A program made the translations under genes and the position numbers. Positions 3,717 to 12,290 of a DNA stretch of 64,000 nucleotides are shown in pieces (the first letter of the stretch is position 1; each line of letters starts with the position of its first letter). Source of the stretch: Geitlerinema sp. BBD 1991-9 (GTDB taxonomy: Bacteria > Cyanobacteriota > Cyanobacteriia > Cyanobacteriales > Geitlerinemataceae); NCBI GenBank assembly GCA_001657325.1, contig LWRO01000011.1:44606-108605 (forward strand), written 5' to 3'. The notes under the pieces are model-generated. The model saw only the letters and a list, made by a program, of their open reading frames with translations, had not been told where the DNA came from and searched no databases.

Positions 3717-4094
3717 TCAGGTCACCGCTTCGGGATGGTCAGTCATATAACTGAGTAACCAATTGGCCATCGTGGCGCGGCGCGTGTCCCGAGGATCGAA
3801 TTCCCCAATTTTATAGCCTTTAAATCCTAACTTTTCCTTAAGAAGTTGTTTGTTCGGTTTGGGAATCGATCGAGTCAGTTTAACCGTTGGCGGACGGTTG
3901 GCGATAAAGTCAGGGGGTTCGGGATAGTCTTGTTTCCAGGCTTCAGACACGTCAGAATTGTCCCACTGTCCCGTATTACCGTTGTATCGATAGCCCAGAT
4001 AGTGCCACACCAAACGATTAACCGTATCGTCGTCGAGCTCTTCGTTGAGGATTGCCCAAATGGTATCCGTATTTAGAGAGGGTAACTCAGACAT
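3717..4094 (-). CDS. DUF1823 family protein
   Basis: Conserved cyanobacterial protein of unknown function, 125 residues, soluble. It shows the family pattern: an N-terminal TIWAILNEELDDD stretch, VWHYLGYRY, a PPDFIANRPPTVKLTRSIP block and a C-terminal TRRATMANWLLSYM. No catalytic motif is evident. Its ATG (4092-4094) lies inside the end of the upstream gene (8-bp overlap with the gene ending at 4087), so the two are very likely translated together. Family assignment is from recalled pattern and is fairly confident; function cannot be given. Confidence 0.75.
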   Translation of the reverse strand: MSELPSLNTDTIWAILNEELDDDTVNRLVWHYLGYRYNGNTGQWDNSDVSEAWKQDYPEPPDFIANRPPTVKLTRSIPKPNKQLLKEKLGFKGYKIGEFDPRDTRRATMANWLLSYMTDHPEAVT

Positions 4095-4635
4095 CGTTGC
4101 GTAGATTCAACAAAGTAAAATGTGCGACGGCCAAACTCAACCGCGCGCGTTCGAGGGTCGAAAGTTCCATCCAAGGCGCACTCCGTACCGATTCGGACAC
4201 CGATTCTGGGGTTTTACCGCGCATGGCGTAGGCGAAGGGACGGGCGAGAACTTGAAGGTCTTCGATCGACCAATTGGGAATTAGCCCATGTACGCAGCGT
4301 ACCAAAAGATCGGCGAGAGACAAATTCCCCGCCATCAACTGCGCGGCTTGATGGGCGATGGCATCGAGAATATCTTGAGGAACCCGCGCACCGAATTTCT
4401 GACGGAGTTGTACGTGCAGCCAACACGCATTGAGGTGTTGGAAAAATACGGGATATCGATCGCCAATTTCGAGATCGTCGATTTCGAGACGCTCTTCAAA
4501 CTTCGTCAATCTCACACTCGATTCTCGATCGAGGGGATTCCAAGGATAGTTTTCGTCGTCACCCAGCAAAATCGCATCTAACAGATCGAGTTCGACTTGG
4601 CTTTGTTGGGAGGTAGAAGGATTCCGAGAGGACAT
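4087..4635 (-). CDS. Conserved hypothetical protein, overlapping the DUF1823 gene
   Basis: About 182 residues, soluble, alpha-helical in appearance, not recognised. It has an acidic N-terminal part (LLDAILLGDDENYPW), a helical middle and a C-terminal hydrophobic helix (ERARLSLAVAHFTLLNL). The frame is open further upstream to 4758, but the ATG at 4633-4635 is preferred because the upstream extension is low-complexity and lies close to the CHAT gene end at 4776. The last codons overlap the DUF1823 start by 8 bp, which indicates one operon. Whether it is functionally tied to DUF1823 or to the CHAT-FHA gene upstream on the same strand (140 bp away) is unknown. Confidence 0.65.
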   Translation of the reverse strand: MSSRNPSTSQQSQVELDLLDAILLGDDENYPWNPLDRESSVRLTKFEERLEIDDLEIGDRYPVFFQHLNACWLHVQLRQKFGARVPQDILDAIAHQAAQLMAGNLSLADLLVRCVHGLIPNWSIEDLQVLARPFAYAMRGKTPESVSESVRSAPWMELSTLERARLSLAVAHFTLLNLRNDV

Positions 4636-4775
4636 GGCAATAAGACGTTCGGAAAACGCAGCGGAACGGCGGCCACAAGAGTGTGACAATTCTGGAACTG
4701 TGCTAATGTCTGAGCTTTCACTAACTACATCACGACTTTGGGGCTTTCCGCAACCCAAAATCGCCGCATTGAGCG

Positions 4776-6371
4776 TCAGTCTACGACAAACTCCCAGGCT
4801 TGACCTTGAGAACTACCGAATTTGAGTTGCGTTCCCGATGCGAGCGAGATTTCTTGGTGGTGAATTTTACGCCAATCGTCGCCGCTGCGGACGAGGGTAC
4901 CGTAACGCGAAAAGTCTCGCAGAAAGTACGTCGGGTGCGAACTGTCGTGAAGGTGGCGGTAGAAGATCTCGGCGTGACGCTGCGAAACCCAGCGTTCGGA
5001 AACGATCGCGTCGTTGTCCTCCGTGCGTCCGACGCGCAACAAACCGCGACGGATATTCCAAACTGTATCGGGAGAAGAGATCGAACGCAAACAGGCTTTT
5101 GTAGACAATCGATCGAGTCGCGTGGTGGAGTTTTCCGGTAATTCCGTGACAATTTGATGGGGCGATTCGAGAAGTTGGCCGTCGAATTCTGGGTGGAGGT
5201 ACAACACCGGAAGCGTCCAGGCGGGTTGATTGAATTTATAGAGTGTCAGGAGTTGCTGACGGGCGATCGCAACGGCTCGATCGATCGGATGACGTTGGGC
5301 GAGAGTCTGGGCGAAGGCTTGAATGAAACTGAGCGCTTCTCGATCGGCGATCGCGTCGCGCATGGCCAAAACGGCTGGAACGCCGTGATGGATGAGAACT
5401 TCGGCTAAGCTGCTGCGGGGGATGAGTTCGTTCTCGTGACAGTCGCTTTGTGCGCCCCAGCAAGCGTTAAATACCGCCAGCGTCACTTGCGATCGAACCA
5501 AAACTTGCGCCAGTTCTGTCCCGCTGAGGGTCGTATCGTCCCGCAGGAACAATCGTCCGCCATCGGGTGCGGGTACGCCGTGGCCGGAATAGAGCAAGAT
5601 ATTGTACTGTTTGGTTTCCAGTCGATCGATCAGTTCGGCGGGAGTCGGTTGAATTAACGTCTCGACGCGATAGGGAACCGCCGCATCTTGTCGGCTACAG
5701 TTGGCGAACAGTTCTGCAATTTGACAGGCTTCCGTTTCCAAATCCAACACCGAGGTTCGATTGTCGTCCCCGCATCCGAGAACTAAGAGCATTTGCAACG
5801 ATCGACCCACACTTCGCAACGCCAGGGGATCGACATCGCAGGTGGTACGACTGAAGAGAATATTTCGATCGAGCGATAGCGCCGGCTTTCCCAAACGAGG
5901 CTGTGCGATTTCCCACGGAAACCCGATTAAGGCGGGATCGCGCACGTCCAAACGTACTCTCAACGGAATGCGACGACCGAGTGCGATTCCTTGGCTTTGC
6001 GCCAAACTCCGCTGAACCGATCCGGCGAACAGCCACGTCCACAACTCTAAACCCAACTGCTGCATGAGTCGGCTGCTGTAGCTTCCCACCGTCGGACTCG
6101 GCGATGGAAAAAAGGACTCGAGAGCGTTCGACGCACTCGCGGTTGCGGGAACGGGAAGGGGATTGAGAGAAAATAAATCTTGCCAGGCTTGCCAAGTCTG
6201 CGCCAAAGATTCCGGCCAGACTGAATCGTGGTGAACGTAGCCACTGGGATGAGGGGCTTGTAGAACCCAAATGGCATATCGACGCTGTTGTCGGTTCGGT
6301 GACTCGTCAGAACGATCGGCGGTCAACGGTGAGATCGCCAAACTCAAGCGAGGAAAGTCAGATTGCAGCAT
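4776..6371 (-). CDS. CHAT-domain (caspase-like) protease fused to an FHA domain
   Basis: 531-residue soluble protein. Residues about 100-390 form a CHAT domain, a clan CD caspase/separase-like peptidase fold: His264 in YSGHG and Cys304 in VFNACWG are the expected catalytic dyad, each after a hydrophobic strand. Residues about 438-531 are an FHA domain, a phosphothreonine reader, with LLRVGRTEDND and the SQRH motif (Ser463-His466) and a downstream YGT. The fusion suggests a protease whose recruitment depends on Ser/Thr phosphorylation (inference). No TPRs, which often accompany CHAT. It is divergent from the large STAND-WD40 gene, 161 bp between starts. Start ATG 6369-6371. An alternative is a regulatory, non-proteolytic CHAT, but the dyad is intact. 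Confidence 0.85.
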   Translation of the reverse strand: MLQSDFPRLSLAISPLTADRSDESPNRQQRRYAIWVLQAPHPSGYVHHDSVWPESLAQTWQAWQDLFSLNPLPVPATASASNALESFFPSPSPTVGSYSSRLMQQLGLELWTWLFAGSVQRSLAQSQGIALGRRIPLRVRLDVRDPALIGFPWEIAQPRLGKPALSLDRNILFSRTTCDVDPLALRSVGRSLQMLLVLGCGDDNRTSVLDLETEACQIAELFANCSRQDAAVPYRVETLIQPTPAELIDRLETKQYNILLYSGHGVPAPDGGRLFLRDDTTLSGTELAQVLVRSQVTLAVFNACWGAQSDCHENELIPRSSLAEVLIHHGVPAVLAMRDAIADREALSFIQAFAQTLAQRHPIDRAVAIARQQLLTLYKFNQPAWTLPVLYLHPEFDGQLLESPHQIVTELPENSTTRLDRLSTKACLRSISSPDTVWNIRRGLLRVGRTEDNDAIVSERWVSQRHAEIFYRHLHDSSHPTYFLRDFSRYGTLVRSGDDWRKIHHQEISLASGTQLKFGSSQGQAWEFVVD

Positions 6372-6532
6372 TCCAAGCGACGTGTGAGGAATTGAAGCGA
6401 GAGAAGCATTCTCTTTTTAGTCTATTCCAACTCTGACCGAGCGTCCGGCGCTGGGAATTAGAAGTTGGGGCTAGACTGTTAAACAAGTTAATTTGTTCCC
6501 CAATTTCCACAGAAATGTAGAGAGATAGTGGT
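6372..6532. promoter_or_regulatory. Divergent promoter region between CHAT-FHA and STAND-WD40 genes
   Basis: 161-bp gap between two divergent start codons. It contains an imperfect palindrome, AACAAgttaatTTGTT (6482-6497), that could be an operator, and a TAGACT hexamer at 6472-6477 that could serve as a -10 box for the plus-strand gene. A purine-rich AGAGAGATAG precedes the ATG at 6533. Shared control of the two genes is plausible but inferred from geometry only. Confidence 0.35.
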
Positions 6533-9500
6533 ATGTCCGACATCACCCCGACGAACGAAAAAGCTTTAGAAGAGCTAATTTGGTCGATCGAAGCATCTCA
6601 GGGGAAGTTTTTACTCGTTCTCGCTCAATGTAACGATATTCAAACTCGCGATCGACTGTTGCAGCATTTGTCACAAATGTGTTCGTTTCGGCTGCGATCG
6701 ATCGAGCTTCCGCCGGGGACGACGCAGCCTTACAGTACGCTTTGCAAGATACTCGGCGACGATCGACCGGATGCGTTGATGGTGTTGGGGTTGGTGGGGT
6801 CGAATCGCGAGGCGTTGGTGTCGATCGACAATATGCGCGAGGCGTTTCGCGAGACGTTTCAGTTTCCGGTTATTTTTTGGATTACGCGAGAAACGCACGT
6901 GGCGTTGATTCGGGTTGCGCCGGATTTTGAAAGTTGGACGACGACCACGAAGTTTGAAAGCTCGGCGAGTGAGTTTGTGGCGTTGGTTCGGGATATTGCA
7001 AATTGTTGGTTTTCTCTGAGCGATGCGGAACCTGCGGTTTCATATTTCGATGTTGGCGATGAAATCGATCGTTTTTTTCGCTCGGAATTGGCGAGTTCAG
7101 TTGAGGAGGACACGGGTGGCGAACTGGGTTCGCCACCGCGAGCTGTCCGTTCGGATGGAGAATTTGCGGCTAACTGTGCCTCGTTACTCGGGTTGAGTTT
7201 GTCGTTAAAGTCCCAGTGGCTTCGATCGATCGAGCAGTTAGAAACAGCGTTCGATCGATGGGGTCAGTTAAACCAGATCGATCGTCAAGGATTGGTCTTG
7301 ACAGAAATCGCATTTTGTGTTAAAAAATTGGCTTCTCAAAATGAGGTCGATCGAGTTGAGTATTGTTTCGATCGAGCGTTAAATCTTTTCGATAAAATTG
7401 AAAATTTTCGGATTTATAATAAATTGGTCGATCGGGTGTATCGCATGGTTCGATCGATCGAAGCGTGGGACAAGCAAGAGGTTTTAGCAAGGAAGGTTTT
7501 AGAGATTGGGAAAACGGCGATCGATCGAGCCAAGGCTTACAGTTTTTTGGGGGAAGCTTGCCGCAAACGAGAACAATGGCAAGACGCGAGAGATTTCGCA
7601 TTCCAAAGTCTCGAATTATTGAAAACCATCGAAGTTTCCGCGAGCGATTCAGCTTACAATGTAGAAGTTCGAGGGTTTCTTGAAAATCTCGATCGATGCA
7701 CGTTGGGAACGGCGCTCGATCGATTGGAAGAATCGAACGAAGCGTTAACCCATCTCGAAACAGCAAAACAACAGAGTAATCCCGAACTCGACTTAACCCT
7801 TCACCTCGATATTCTGTGCGAACTCGAACGAATTTATTACCATCGAAAAGCCTATCTTCAAGCCTTTGAAACGAAGCAAGAAAGACTATCGATCGAGCAA
7901 CAATTCGGCTTAATCGCGTTCGTTGGCGCGGGACGAGTTCAACCGCGTCGAACCGAAATTCGCAGCCTGACCCCCAATCGATTAGATGTCGCCGACGAAA
8001 TCGCCGCCTCGGGACGACAGCAAGATGTAGAGAAACTCCTCGAACGAGTGGGAAGAATCGATACCAAAATTACCCTCGTTTATGGATTTTCAGGAGTTGG
8101 CAAAAGTTCTCTGATTTCCGCTGGCTTAGTTCCCGCCATTCAACGGAAAAGTTTTGGCGTTCAAGATGGCTTAGTTGTTCTTTTGAGAAACTATAACGAC
8201 TGGCAAAAACAATTCGCAATTGTGTTAACTAAAACTTTACATGAAAAAGAGATCGATCCTTACGCAATCTTAGATAGTGAAGATGCGATTTTAACGCAAT
8301 TGCAACATAACGAAGATACTCACAATCTGAGAACGGTATTAATTTTCGATCAATTTGAAGAATTTTTCTTTGAATACGGAAGAAAACGAACGCGAAACGT
8401 TTTATTTGATTTTCTCGGACGAGTACTTGATACGGTTTCGTCGTTGCGCGTAATATTTTCTTTACGCCGAGACTCGATTCACTTTCTCTTGCGCCGCACT
8501 ATTTTTCAAGACATTGATATTCTCAGCGATAAAAATCTTTATTATATTGGCAATTTCACACCAGAGGAAGCGAAAACAGCCGTCGAGCAACTGTCGAGGC
8601 AGGGCAACTTTCCCATGCAACCTGACTTGATTGATGCAGTGATTGCCGATTTATCGAAAAGTGAAACCAGCGAAAAATACGACCGGGTTAGACCGATCGA
8701 ATTGCAAATTGTCGGGGCGCAGTTGCAACGGGAAAATATCACAACCCTGGAGGAGTATCGGCAAAAGGGAACGAAGGAAGAATTAGTCGGACGTTATGTT
8801 GACGAAGCAGTTCGCGATTGCGGGACGGAAAACCGACAGTTAGCCGAATTGGTGTTGTTTTTGCTGACGGATGAGAAGATTCTTCGCCCGACGAAGAATC
8901 GATCGGAGTTAGCCGAGGAAGTCACGCAACTCAACACGCCAACGGATGAGTTGGATTTGGTGTTGATGGTGTTGGCGGGTTCGGGTTTGTTGGTGCGATT
9001 GCCGAGTCAGGAGGAAGACGGCTATCAATTGATTCACGACTATCTCGCGGAGTTGATTCGCCAGCAGCAAGAACCTCGCGTGATGGAGTTGGTGAAGCAG
9101 GAACGGGAAAAGCGAGAGAAAGCAGAAGCGCAGTTAGCAGATGCGGAAGTGAAGAACCGAAAAGCAACGCAACGGTTGCAGATAGGATCGATTTTGTTAG
9201 CTGTGTCTGTGTTGGCTGCATTAGGGTTGGGTGCTGCTAGCGAAGTTGCACGGCAAGGCTTAAAACGAAGAAAGCTTGAGACGCGGCTAGAGCAACAGGC
9301 AAACGATGCTGTACAGCGATTTGAATTCGATCAAATTGAGGCGTTGCTCGTTGCTATAAGAGCGGTCAAAGAATTGCAAAAAACAGAAAAGAACGGTGTC
9401 TATGTGGTCTATCGTCCCATTTCTGCATTAGGGTCGATTGTTCGGAGTATCCGCGAACAAAATCGCTTGCAAGGGCATCAGAATAGGGTCTGGAGCGCCC

Positions 9501-11545
9501 AGTTCAGCCTGGGTGGAGAGCATATCATCACCGCCTCGGATGACGGTACAGCGAGGCTATGGGACACTCAAGGCAACGAACTGTCTGTCTTTGAAGGACA
9601 TCAAGGCACAGTTTGGGGCGTCCAGTTCAACCCGAACGGAGAACGCATCGTTACCGCCTCGGATGACGGTACAGCGAGGCTATGGGACACTCAAGGCAAC
9701 GAACTGGCTGTCCTTGAAGGACATCAAGAGGCAGTCGTTAGTGTTCGGTTCAGCCCGAACGGAGAACGCATCGTCACTGCCTCAGAAGACGGTACGGCAC
9801 GTTTGTGGGACACTCAAGGCAACGAACTGTCTGTCCTTGAAGGGCATCAAGGTAAAGTTTGGAGCGCCCAGTTCAGCCCGAACGGAGAGCGTATCGTTAC
9901 CGCCTCGGATGACGGTACGGCACGGCTGTGGGATGCACAAGGACAGGTGCTAGTTGTCCTCAAAGGGCATCAGGAGGCGGTCGGGAGAGTTCAGTTCAGC
10001 CCAGATGGAGAACGCATTGTCACCACATCATCGGACGGTACGGCACGTTTGTGGGACTCTCGGGGCTATGAACTTGCTATCCTCAAGGGACATCAAGGTA
10101 CGGTCTGGAGTACCCAGTTTAGCCCGGATGGAGAGCGCATCGTCACTGCCTCAGAAGACGGCACGGCACGGTTGTGGGATGCCCAAGGACACGAACTGGC
10201 TGTCTTCAAAGGACACATTGCTAGGGTTGTTAGCGTCCGATTCAGTCCGGATGGAAAGCGCATCGTCACCGCATCATACGACGACACGGCACGGCTGTGG
10301 GACGTTCAAGGCAACGAACTGGCCGTCCTCGAAGGGCATCAGGAGGCGGTCTGGAGCGCCCAATTCAGCCCAGATGGAGAGCAAATCGTCACCGCATCAT
10401 TTGACGACACAGTACGACTGTGGGATTTTCAAGGACACGAACTGGCTGTCCTCGAAGGGCATCAGGAGGCGGTCTGGAGCGCCCAATTCAGCCCAGATGG
10501 AGAGCAAATCGTCACCGCATCATACGACGGCACGGCACGGCTGTGGGACGTTCAAGGCAACGAACTGGCCGTCCTCGAAGGGCATCAAGAGGAAGTTATT
10601 AGCGCCCAGTTCAGCCCGGAAGGAAAGCGCATCGTCACCGTATCATACGACGGCACGGCACGGCTGTGGGACGTTCAAGGGAACGAACTGGCCGTCCTCG
10701 AAGGGCATCAAGGCGCGGTCCGGAGCGCCCAGTTCAGTCCAGACGGAGAGCGCATCGTCACCGCATCATACGACGGCATGGCACGGCTGTGGGACGTTCA
10801 AGGCAACGAACTGGCTGTCCTCGAAGGGCATCAAGAGGAAGTTATTAGCGCCCAGTTCAGCCTGGAAGGAAAGCGCATCGTCACTGCATCAATCGACAAC
10901 ACAGCGAGGCTGTGGGACGTTCAAGGCAACGAACTGGCCGTCCTTGAGGGGCATCAAGGCGCGGTCTGGAGCGCCCAGTTCAGTCCAGACGGAGAGCGCA
11001 TCGTCACCGCATCATACGACGGCACGGCACGGCTGTGGGACGTTCAAGGGAACGAACTGGCCGTCCTCGAGGGGCATCAAGGCACGGTCTGGAGCGCCCA
11101 GTTCAGCCCGGACGGAGAGTGCATCGTTACTGCATCAACAGATAAAACGGCGAGGTTGTGGGACACTCAAGGTATCGAACTGGCTGTCTTTGAAGGACAT
11201 CGGAATTCGGTCGTTAGTGTCCGGTTCAGCCCGGACGGAGAGCACATCGTTACTGCATCAACAGATAAAACGGCGAGGTTGTGGGACACGCAAGGACATG
11301 AACTCGGCATCCTCGAGGGACATCAGGATAAAGTTTGGAGCGCCCAGTTCAGCCCGGACGGAGAACACATCGTCACAGCTTCATCAGATGACACGGCGCG
11401 GCTGTGGCGCGTTGAAACATTGGACGAGCTACTAGAACGCGGGTGTGAATGGCTGCACGACTACCTCACCACCAACCCCAACGCCACAGACGAAGATCGC
11501 GCCATGTGCGGCATTCCGCCTCGGGAAGCAGAAGAAGAACCGTGA
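6533..11545 (+). CDS. STAND NTPase with C-terminal WD40 propellers (1670 aa)
   Basis: Large signal-transduction NTPase. Residues 1-145 form an unrecognised alpha/beta domain. Residues about 200-450 are helical and TPR-like. A novel-STAND NTPase follows: Walker A GFSGVGKSS (Lys524), Walker B VLIFDQFEEFFF (Asp606), then helical winged-type regions to about 840. A charged coiled coil leads to one predicted membrane helix at about 884-904 (IGSILLAVSVLAALGLGAA), and residues 981 to about 1625 hold 16 WD40 repeats ending in a short LERGCEWLHDYL helix. Such proteins act as switches: propellers sense a ligand, NTP-driven oligomerisation activates an effector. No effector domain is obvious in this chain; the divergent CHAT-FHA protease is the natural candidate partner (inference). 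Start ATG 6533 follows a purine-rich AGAGAGATAG. Confidence 0.88.
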   Translation: MSDITPTNEKALEELIWSIEASQGKFLLVLAQCNDIQTRDRLLQHLSQMCSFRLRSIELPPGTTQPYSTLCKILGDDRPDALMVLGLVGSNREALVSIDNMREAFRETFQFPVIFWITRETHVALIRVAPDFESWTTTTKFESSASEFVALVRDIANCWFSLSDAEPAVSYFDVGDEIDRFFRSELASSVEEDTGGELGSPPRAVRSDGEFAANCASLLGLSLSLKSQWLRSIEQLETAFDRWGQLNQIDRQGLVLTEIAFCVKKLASQNEVDRVEYCFDRALNLFDKIENFRIYNKLVDRVYRMVRSIEAWDKQEVLARKVLEIGKTAIDRAKAYSFLGEACRKREQWQDARDFAFQSLELLKTIEVSASDSAYNVEVRGFLENLDRCTLGTALDRLEESNEALTHLETAKQQSNPELDLTLHLDILCELERIYYHRKAYLQAFETKQERLSIEQQFGLIAFVGAGRVQPRRTEIRSLTPNRLDVADEIAASGRQQDVEKLLERVGRIDTKITLVYGFSGVGKSSLISAGLVPAIQRKSFGVQDGLVVLLRNYNDWQKQFAIVLTKTLHEKEIDPYAILDSEDAILTQLQHNEDTHNLRTVLIFDQFEEFFFEYGRKRTRNVLFDFLGRVLDTVSSLRVIFSLRRDSIHFLLRRTIFQDIDILSDKNLYYIGNFTPEEAKTAVEQLSRQGNFPMQPDLIDAVIADLSKSETSEKYDRVRPIELQIVGAQLQRENITTLEEYRQKGTKEELVGRYVDEAVRDCGTENRQLAELVLFLLTDEKILRPTKNRSELAEEVTQLNTPTDELDLVLMVLAGSGLLVRLPSQEEDGYQLIHDYLAELIRQQQEPRVMELVKQEREKREKAEAQLADAEVKNRKATQRLQIGSILLAVSVLAALGLGAASEVARQGLKRRKLETRLEQQANDAVQRFEFDQIEALLVAIRAVKELQKTEKNGVYVVYRPISALGSIVRSIREQNRLQGHQNRVWSAQFSLGGEHIITASDDGTARLWDTQGNELSVFEGHQGTVWGVQFNPNGERIVTASDDGTARLWDTQGNELAVLEGHQEAVVSVRFSPNGERIVTASEDGTARLWDTQGNELSVLEGHQGKVWSAQFSPNGERIVTASDDGTARLWDAQGQVLVVLKGHQEAVGRVQFSPDGERIVTTSSDGTARLWDSRGYELAILKGHQGTVWSTQFSPDGERIVTASEDGTARLWDAQGHELAVFKGHIARVVSVRFSPDGKRIVTASYDDTARLWDVQGNELAVLEGHQEAVWSAQFSPDGEQIVTASFDDTVRLWDFQGHELAVLEGHQEAVWSAQFSPDGEQIVTASYDGTARLWDVQGNELAVLEGHQEEVISAQFSPEGKRIVTVSYDGTARLWDVQGNELAVLEGHQGAVRSAQFSPDGERIVTASYDGMARLWDVQGNELAVLEGHQEEVISAQFSLEGKRIVTASIDNTARLWDVQGNELAVLEGHQGAVWSAQFSPDGERIVTASYDGTARLWDVQGNELAVLEGHQGTVWSAQFSPDGECIVTASTDKTARLWDTQGIELAVFEGHRNSVVSVRFSPDGEHIVTASTDKTARLWDTQGHELGILEGHQDKVWSAQFSPDGEHIVTASSDDTARLWRVETLDELLERGCEWLHDYLTTNPNATDEDRAMCGIPPREAEEEP
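9473..11410 (+). repeat. Array of 16 WD40-coding repeats, about 123 bp each
   Basis: Tandem in-frame units of about 41 codons within the STAND gene, each running from GHQ through FSPDGERIVTAS and DGTARLWD. Adjacent units differ in few bases (for example the units starting near 10321 and 10441), while sites expected to face the propeller top vary (after GHQ: NRV, GTV, EAV, EEV, ARV, NSV, DKV). Sixteen repeats would make about two propellers. The low divergence indicates recent duplication or gene conversion inside the gene. Because the unit is a multiple of three, another frame also stays open across the array. Confidence 0.9.
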
Positions 11546-11675
11546 CACCCGACCCACAACCCACGAGAATTCAGACAACATCGCCGCTCCTCAACTCCCG
11601 CGATTCGGTACGCTAGAAAGAAATCGAACTGACTCGATCGAGCTACGCTCCGAAGCACGCGAACGAACAAACCCC

Positions 11676-12290
11676 ATGAACGAAGATTACAAACTGCCCA
11701 CCAGCGACCCCGCCACGACGGAAGCACTTCCCCCCGCCGTCGAGCGCGTGATTCCCGCCCTGCGCTTAGCCGGATGGACGAGTTTTTGGGTGCAAATCGT
11801 CCTGGGAATCGTCGCCGGCCTGATTTTCGTCTTTGCCGTTTCCGTCGCCGCCTTCGACGACTCCGAAGCCGCCCAAATGAACCCAGGACGCGGGCCGGGC
11901 ATCTTTTTCGCCATTACGGGACTCATCGCCCTGGGCATTAGCATTTACTGGTCGGCTTCCTACGTCCAACTGGCCAAACGCCTGAAAATTCCCGACAGCA
12001 GCGTGCGTCCCACCCGCGCCCAAACCGTTCGATCGATCGAAATCGGCACCCTCATCAACATCGTCGGAATGCTGTTCAACCTCATGGCCGCCGAGACGAT
12101 TACGGGTATCCTGTTAGCAAAAGCCCTGCGCTCGGAAGGGGTCGCCTTTTCCCCCGCCGCCTTGAAACAACTCATCCAACCGATCGATCTGTTCGTGGTC
12201 TTGGGAAACACCCACACCCTCGTCGCTCACTTCATCGCTTTAGTTGCGTCCCTGTGGTTGTTGCGCTGGGTTGCAAACGCGAAATCCTAA
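11676..12290 (+). CDS. DUF3611 family integral membrane protein
   Basis: 204 residues with four predicted membrane helices: SFWVQIVLGIVAGLIFVFAVSV, GIFFAITGLIALGISIYW, a helix around IEIGTLINIVGMLFNLMAAETI, and the C-terminal VAHFIALVASLWLLRW. This fits the DUF3611 family of cyanobacteria and plastids; its function is unknown. ATG 11676 is chosen over an earlier in-frame ATG at 11445 because the latter would overlap the end of the STAND gene by 100 bp and encode non-conserved sequence. It lies 130 bp after the STAND-WD40 stop and 21 bp before the next gene, so the two membrane-protein genes likely form an operon. Family call rests on helix pattern and recall. Confidence 0.7.
   Translation: MNEDYKLPTSDPATTEALPPAVERVIPALRLAGWTSFWVQIVLGIVAGLIFVFAVSVAAFDDSEAAQMNPGRGPGIFFAITGLIALGISIYWSASYVQLAKRLKIPDSSVRPTRAQTVRSIEIGTLINIVGMLFNLMAAETITGILLAKALRSEGVAFSPAALKQLIQPIDLFVVLGNTHTLVAHFIALVASLWLLRWVANAKS

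Follow-up and report, generated by a model that had tools for sequence, protein, structure and literature searches.

Organization of the locus

We analysed a 64,000-nucleotide stretch of DNA from Geitlerinema sp. BBD 1991-9 (contig LWRO01000011.1, positions 44,606 to 108,605), referred to here as the window, and focused on a gene on its minus strand (4776..6371) that encodes a 531-residue protein, CHAT-FHA. Pfam places two domains in this protein, both over cut-off: a CHAT domain at residues 106-379 (PF12770, 81.5 bits against a cut-off of 24; about 5235-6056, minus strand) and an FHA domain at residues 446-519 (PF00498, 37.9 bits against a cut-off of 20.7; about 4815-5036, minus strand). The original prediction, made from the sequence of the window, described a CHAT peptidase with a His264/Cys304 dyad fused to an FHA domain, and this description held. 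The predicted catalytic His264 (codon 5580..5582, minus strand) and Cys304 (codon 5460..5462, minus strand) lie where they had been placed, are invariant in 30 sequences and align with the GHS and NSC motifs, respectively, of the HetF-like protein encoded in the same genome. The FHA residues G448, R449, N453, S463 and H466, which have a role in phosphothreonine binding, showed zero variation in 30 aligned CHAT-FHA sequences, that of the window included. Judged by the invariance of these key residues, the protease and the FHA domain are both apparently intact; the Pfam scores together with the His/Cys dyad and the phosphopeptide-binding residues point to membership of the CHAT and FHA families, with proteolysis itself a prediction. 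A Pfam scan at E 0.001 returned CHAT and FHA alone, with no TPR and no match to peptidase C14 (orthocaspase), and the protein has no strongly hydrophobic stretch.

Directly downstream of CHAT-FHA lies a small gene, absent from the original prediction, which encodes a predicted all-helical partner. The mechanical open reading frame spans 4087-4758, but its start is likely the ATG at 4635, because orthologues begin there, which gives a protein of 182 residues (4087..4635, minus strand). On the other side, a divergent intergenic region of 161 bp (6372..6532) separates CHAT-FHA from a STAND-WD40 gene on the plus strand (6533..11545) that encodes 1670 residues. The main features that had been assigned to this protein were confirmed: an nSTAND1 NTPase domain at residues 494-840 (PF20703, 117.6 bits; 8012..9052, plus strand), Lys524 within the Walker A motif GFSGVGKSS, a single strongly hydrophobic stretch at residues 884-902 and 16 WD40 stretches. 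Proteins that combine nSTAND1 with WD40 repeats occur in multicellular bacteria, and the nSTAND1 domain, Walker A motif and C-terminal repeats mark the window's protein as a member of this group. It also has weak TPR matches and, at residues 1-165 (6533..7027, plus strand), an AAA-like N-terminal domain that had previously gone unmentioned. AlphaFold2 modelled this domain with a pLDDT of 88, and it matched AAA+ proteins in the PDB; no Walker A motif was seen in its alignment. The 3′ end of the STAND gene is overlapped by a DUF3611 gene (mechanical open reading frame 11445-12290, plus strand), the true start of which is probably further downstream because the Pfam match starts at residue 97.

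Distribution of CHAT-FHA and its relationship to HetF

The pairing of CHAT with FHA in a protein lacking TPRs had been thought uncommon. This is not so in the order to which the window belongs: 159 of 232 genomes, an even sample of the order, have a CHAT-FHA orthologue, almost always as a single match per genome. In a sample of the phylum, 37 of 146 genomes have CHAT-FHA, again almost always as a single match. Among 59 genomes comprising the window's own and its relatives, in which an orthologue was defined as a match of at least 262 bits, CHAT-FHA was found in 40, although the orthologue of one (G055) is a fragment interrupted by a stop. When a second CHAT-FHA served as query, its best 120 relatives came mostly from Nostoc, Anabaena and their kin, with Nodularia represented too, and the names among them were 'CHAT domain-containing', 'FHA domain containing', 'forkhead-associated' and 'hypothetical' protein. 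On these genome comparisons, CHAT-FHA is an old cyanobacterial gene. In the open-access papers searched, we found no description of this domain pairing in cyanobacteria or of the gene cluster described below. Baaleninema simplex PCC 7105, with a CHAT-FHA 82-84% identical, is the nearest named relative that we found, in a search that may omit records very close to the window. The 5.98-Mb source genome has a large CHAT repertoire, with 26 matches to the Pfam model, 19 of which outscore the window's CHAT-FHA.

The best NCBIfam model for CHAT-FHA was HetF, at 157.8 bits against a cut-off of 1200 and over model positions 71-388 of 836. We considered whether CHAT-FHA is the HetF equivalog and rejected this assignment, as the score falls far below the cut-off and a distinct HetF-like gene is present in the genome. 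The product of that gene, the only other match to CHAT-FHA at E 1e-20 in the genome, is 36% identical to it over 331 residues and has its His and Cys at the same positions. HetF belongs to filamentous cyanobacteria, where it functions in cell division and heterocyst development. By the accounts of two papers, it is a membrane protein (PMC8406250) and can cleave PatU3 (PMC12288457). Unlike HetF as so described, CHAT-FHA has an FHA domain and no hydrophobic stretch that would suggest membrane attachment.

A small helical protein accompanies CHAT-FHA

To examine the neighbourhood of CHAT-FHA in other genomes, the open reading frames of the window and of 80 named loci were called and clustered, and neighbours were counted by tblastn in the 80 named loci, restricted to those with enough flanking DNA. 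These loci lean to close relatives, because they are the best 80 of 403 candidate loci. Where a named locus extends 1.2 kb or more downstream, the small gene lies there on the same strand as CHAT-FHA in 55 of 73 cases. Two further genes recur: one for a PP2C phosphatase, upstream and on the same strand as CHAT-FHA (23/68 named loci), and one for an FHA-PrsW protein, downstream and convergent to CHAT-FHA (20/70). At ten further loci from the phylum sample (those new among 20, with flanks of 1.5 kb), two of them in genomes of another order in the class, we found the small gene in 10/10, PP2C in 9/10 and FHA-PrsW in 7/10. The recurrence of a PP2C phosphatase supports the theme of phospho-control in the original prediction.

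Pfam confirmed PP2C in two representatives, in which a zinc-ribbon match fell under its cut-off. Anabaena PrpJ (all1731) is an identity that we considered for this neighbour, as a presumed candidate and not as a claim. PrpJ is described as a PP2C-type phosphatase of the plasma membrane (PMC6161253). Two FHA-PrsW representatives both had FHA and PrsW domains; the neighbour thus resembles the PrsW intramembrane protease in its Pfam domain but differs from it in being fused to FHA and in lying convergent to the CHAT-FHA cluster. The window's genome encodes a 770-residue PP2C homologue on another contig, and FHA-PrsW was not found there, the best match scoring a weak 20.6 bits and covering its FHA part. 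In the window, the small gene is followed by a DUF1823 gene (3717..4094, minus strand; Pfam PF08853) that overlaps it by 8 bp. This neighbour, present at 2/73 named loci and at 8/13 other loci of the window's family (f1), is mainly a feature of that family.

We attempted to assign the small protein to a family or fold, but Pfam, NCBIfam and PADLOC gave no match, and its AlphaFold2 model, which is all-helical with a pLDDT of 79, had no PDB match at E<=0.001. The sole name shown among the best 120 of its 1302 homologues was 'hypothetical protein'. Its occurrence follows that of CHAT-FHA closely: across the 232 genomes of the order, 154 have both, 5 have CHAT-FHA alone, 14 have the small gene alone and 59 have neither (Fisher 2e-35, uncorrected for ancestry). 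Fisher values here and below overstate the evidence because the genomes are related. The two genes need not be adjacent, as the small gene lies away from CHAT-FHA in 11 of 38 relatives that carry both. Taken together, the co-occurrence and the adjacency at 55/73 loci are what would be expected of a dedicated protease-substrate pair.

The Met-Arg pair is conserved with the protease

One helix of the small protein ends in the motif ARPxAYAMR, after which comes a variable linker, and the Met-Arg pair of this motif borders a low-confidence stretch of the AlphaFold2 model. We compared the conservation of this pair, Met138-Arg139 (codons 4219..4224, minus strand), a candidate recognition or cleavage site, between genomes with and without CHAT-FHA. 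The set with CHAT-FHA comprised 154 small proteins, 92 from genomes and 62 from named loci, which are not independent because some come from the same species (L069 = G002). Three of the 14 genomes with the small gene alone were ambiguous and were set aside, leaving 11: G243 has CHAT-FHA in frame-broken pieces, G162 an FHA-tail match alone and G035 an 80-residue frame with two stops. The Arg was present in 152/152 sequences with CHAT-FHA versus 3/11 without, and the Met in 148/152 versus 1/11; the four exceptions with CHAT-FHA have Thr (G019) or Phe (G198, G211 and G239) in place of the Met. When the 92 genomes were counted without the named loci, Arg was kept in 91/91 and Met in 87/91 sequences with CHAT-FHA. 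The pair was changed in 10 of the 11 genomes without the protease, and no other column in the comparison changed as strongly as its Met and Arg (p 4e-12 and 2e-11). W136 and R146 showed the next strongest differences, and W136 is Cys in 4/5 protease-containing genomes of family f17; part of the signal could therefore reflect drift, or a docking surface that was lost.

In a tree of 48 small proteins, absence of the protease required four changes, three of which are forced by starred branches. The four lineages without the protease are genus g6, family f17 and the genomes G036 and G278, and the Met-Arg pair was lost in three of them and kept in G278. These comparisons suggest that the site is conserved only where the protease is present, with one lineage of the four (G278) as a misfit. 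In G036, the PP2C and small genes lie near each other without CHAT-FHA.

Proposed cleavage of the small protein

Because the Met-Arg pair is nearly universal in the presence of the protease and lost in three of four lineages without it, the small protein is likely cut by CHAT-FHA. The reading that we favour, and consider probable, is that CHAT-FHA cleaves the neighbouring small protein after Met-Arg under a phospho-gate formed by FHA and PP2C, with the STAND protein as a family-specific add-on. CHAT-FHA would be a soluble caspase-like protease whose CHAT domain is related to that of the developmental protease HetF. It would be tethered or gated through its FHA domain at a phosphothreonine site, and the PP2C with its putative zinc ribbon, encoded upstream in many relatives, would reverse the phosphothreonine signal. 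No Thr of the small protein comes close enough to invariance to account for docking of the FHA domain on it. Cleavage just after Arg139 would part the helical core from the last helix (residues 160-181) and may thereby switch the activity of the small protein. The FHA-PrsW membrane protease of the cluster may act in the same pathway.

It is possible, although we think it unlikely, that the small protein is instead a regulator of CHAT-FHA, an inhibitor or adaptor whose Met-Arg loop docks uncut. Such a protein would show the same co-occurrence and the same decay of Met-Arg, and R146, Y150 and A151 also decay in genomes without the protease, as a docking surface would; a docking or inhibitory role of the loop fits the data nearly as well as a substrate role. 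What argues for a substrate is that the pair borders a variable linker that is of low confidence in the model, as expected of a cut site, and that in the nearest precedents, HetF-PatU3 and Csx29-Csx30, the partner of the protease is its substrate. The second of these systems, Craspase, pairs a TPR-CHAT protease, Csx29, with a substrate encoded nearby, Csx30, which the paper describing it reports to be cut in a flexible loop (PMC10028731), and the cleavage predicted for CHAT-FHA would be of the same kind. The two differ in that Craspase orthologues, by a further account, cut at a non-conserved site (PMC11106740), whereas the candidate site for CHAT-FHA is nearly invariant. Moreover, CHAT-FHA lacks TPRs and would be controlled through phosphothreonine rather than RNA. 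The ten window genes scanned by Pfam included none for gRAMP/Cas7-11.

Conflict systems are where CHAT proteases are best known, and to our knowledge few of their substrates have been identified. For a protease present in 159 of the 232 genomes of the order, genome comparison by itself has here pointed to a likely substrate and, within it, to a candidate scissile bond. With cleavage after Met-Arg, a relative of HetF would also connect regulated proteolysis with Ser/Thr phosphorylation, by way of FHA and PP2C. The locus appears to be a conserved cluster for phospho-signalling and proteolysis that contains a testable protease-substrate pair with predicted cleavage.

The STAND gene is a local addition

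In the original prediction, sensing by the WD40 propeller drives oligomerisation of the STAND NTPase, which recruits or activates CHAT-FHA in a candidate conflict or death system; the trigger would be an invader or damage. Conserved co-occurrence of the two genes was suggested as a check, and a regular STAND partnership fails it. Of the named loci, 65 extend 3 kb or more upstream of CHAT-FHA, and nSTAND1 was found within 6 kb on that side in none of them, nor within 6 kb downstream in any of 66; it is the small gene that recurs instead. Only two of the loci examined, those of the window and G003, have a full STAND gene next to CHAT-FHA and divergent from it. Although the window's protein has the nSTAND1 domain and WD40 repeats of known nSTAND1/WD40 STAND proteins, its pairing with CHAT-FHA does not appear to be conserved outside one family, f1, to which both full pairs belong. 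The G003 STAND groups with the window copy at 90/65, inside a 97/96 clade, and the divergent pairing may be old within this family. Genome-wide, the STAND type and CHAT-FHA co-occurred in 30 of the 59 genomes, with CHAT-FHA alone in 10, the STAND type alone in 8 and neither in 11 (p=0.02). On these counts, the presence of the STAND type anywhere in a genome is weakly linked to CHAT-FHA, whereas the small protein is strongly linked to it.

Five members of the family keep only the N-terminal domain of the STAND protein at the locus: Baaleninema simplex, G007, G009, G011 and G013. The Baaleninema simplex locus has an open reading frame for this domain, a short 3′ tail and, further on, a second 3′ remnant of STAND. 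Among these remnants (L069/L166) lie two similar 224-residue Asp/Thr-rich proteins with lipoprotein-like N termini, which suggests duplication and deletion at a former STAND locus. The other four genomes are of genus g6; the domain is encoded beside CHAT-FHA in G007 and adjoins the small gene in G009, G011 and G013, from which CHAT-FHA is missing. No open reading frame for the domain was found at the locus in G005, G010, G001, G006 or G008, and the contig ends there in G004 and G012. In a tree of the domain, the window, Baaleninema simplex and the four g6 sequences form one clade (97/88). We considered whether the standalone g6 frames are mere debris and rejected this, as their dN/dS of about 0.06-0.22 (6 pairs) indicates purifying selection.

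These data indicate a genuine STAND link of local extent, and loss of the body of the STAND gene at the locus in relatives that keep CHAT-FHA. We therefore rejected STAND as an obligate partner on the basis of the neighbourhoods, the co-occurrence and the decayed Baaleninema simplex copy, and kept it as a possibility specific to the family. The divergent arrangement with a 161-bp gap, the full STAND gene at the same place in G003 and the N-terminal-domain orthologues in five other family genomes, under purifying selection in g6, would all fit a STAND protein that activates CHAT-FHA as an effector. Set against them are the absence of nSTAND1 from the 65 upstream regions, the decay of STAND in the nearest named relative despite a CHAT-FHA 82-84% identical, and the nearly constant single copy of CHAT-FHA, in synteny with other genes. 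In addition, PADLOC gave just two matches at E 0.001, both to WD40 sequence in the STAND protein, and neither the PADLOC matches nor the copy number of CHAT-FHA across the phylum gave any pointer to phage defence or cell death. A death system in which STAND drives the CHAT protease is thus mostly unsupported by these comparisons, and we regard the activation of CHAT-FHA by STAND as improbable. Lying next to a STAND-WD40 gene does not by itself make a CHAT gene the source of a STAND effector.

In the favoured reading, in which CHAT-FHA cleaves the small protein, the divergent STAND-WD40 gene would be an extra of this family: it may pass a signal to the locus, which is maintained without it elsewhere. 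A more elaborate version, which we offer tentatively and think rather doubtful, is a phosphothreonine relay with two proteases, in which PP2C, CHAT-FHA and FHA-PrsW all act on one small switch protein cut after Met-Arg. The window's family would have connected an NLR-like sensor, the STAND-WD40 protein, to this housekeeping relay through the AAA-like domain, and the domain alone would serve as a functional adaptor in sister species. Domain-only open frames of 155-229 residues also occur away from CHAT-FHA (L178-L183, in G036, G050, G023, G026, G032 and G016), and those of G050, G023, G026, G032 and G016 cluster in the tree (93/84). In the 7.7-Mb genome G053, the N-terminal half of the STAND protein from the window has fifteen matches.

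In-place loss of the protease in family f17

Six genomes of family f17 have the small gene without CHAT-FHA. At all six loci, PP2C, the small gene and FHA-PrsW are still together, and in four of them a search found FHA-tail relics of CHAT-FHA between PP2C and the small gene, in frames broken by stops. On this evidence, CHAT-FHA is deleted in place in these genomes (L209, L252-L256), with its cluster partners retained. Of the 20 columns of the small protein that are at least 90% conserved, 16 are unchanged in all six genomes, yet the Met is lost in 6/6 and the Arg in 4/6, the other two having Thr-Arg. The pair is kept in the five sequences read from the seven f17 genomes with the protease, and likewise in 4/4 read from g6 genomes with it. 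Loss of Met-Arg by lineage-specific drift of the small protein, unconnected to loss of the protease, would be in keeping with a tree of only four changes in which one lineage keeps the pair, with the long branch of the G036 row and with the retention of 18-20 of 28 conserved positions in g6 sequences without the protease, but we regard it as very improbable given that the pair changed in 6/6 otherwise well-conserved f17 sequences and is kept in protease-containing relatives in both g6 and f17.

The small protein had a dN/dS of 0.13-0.49 in nine pairs without the protease, compared with 0.13-0.24 in six g6 pairs with it; because purifying selection persists, the small protein probably keeps a function of its own in genomes that lack CHAT-FHA. 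When searched with CHAT-FHA, the six f17 genomes without the protease also yielded no good match to a HetF, the best being at 4e-10.
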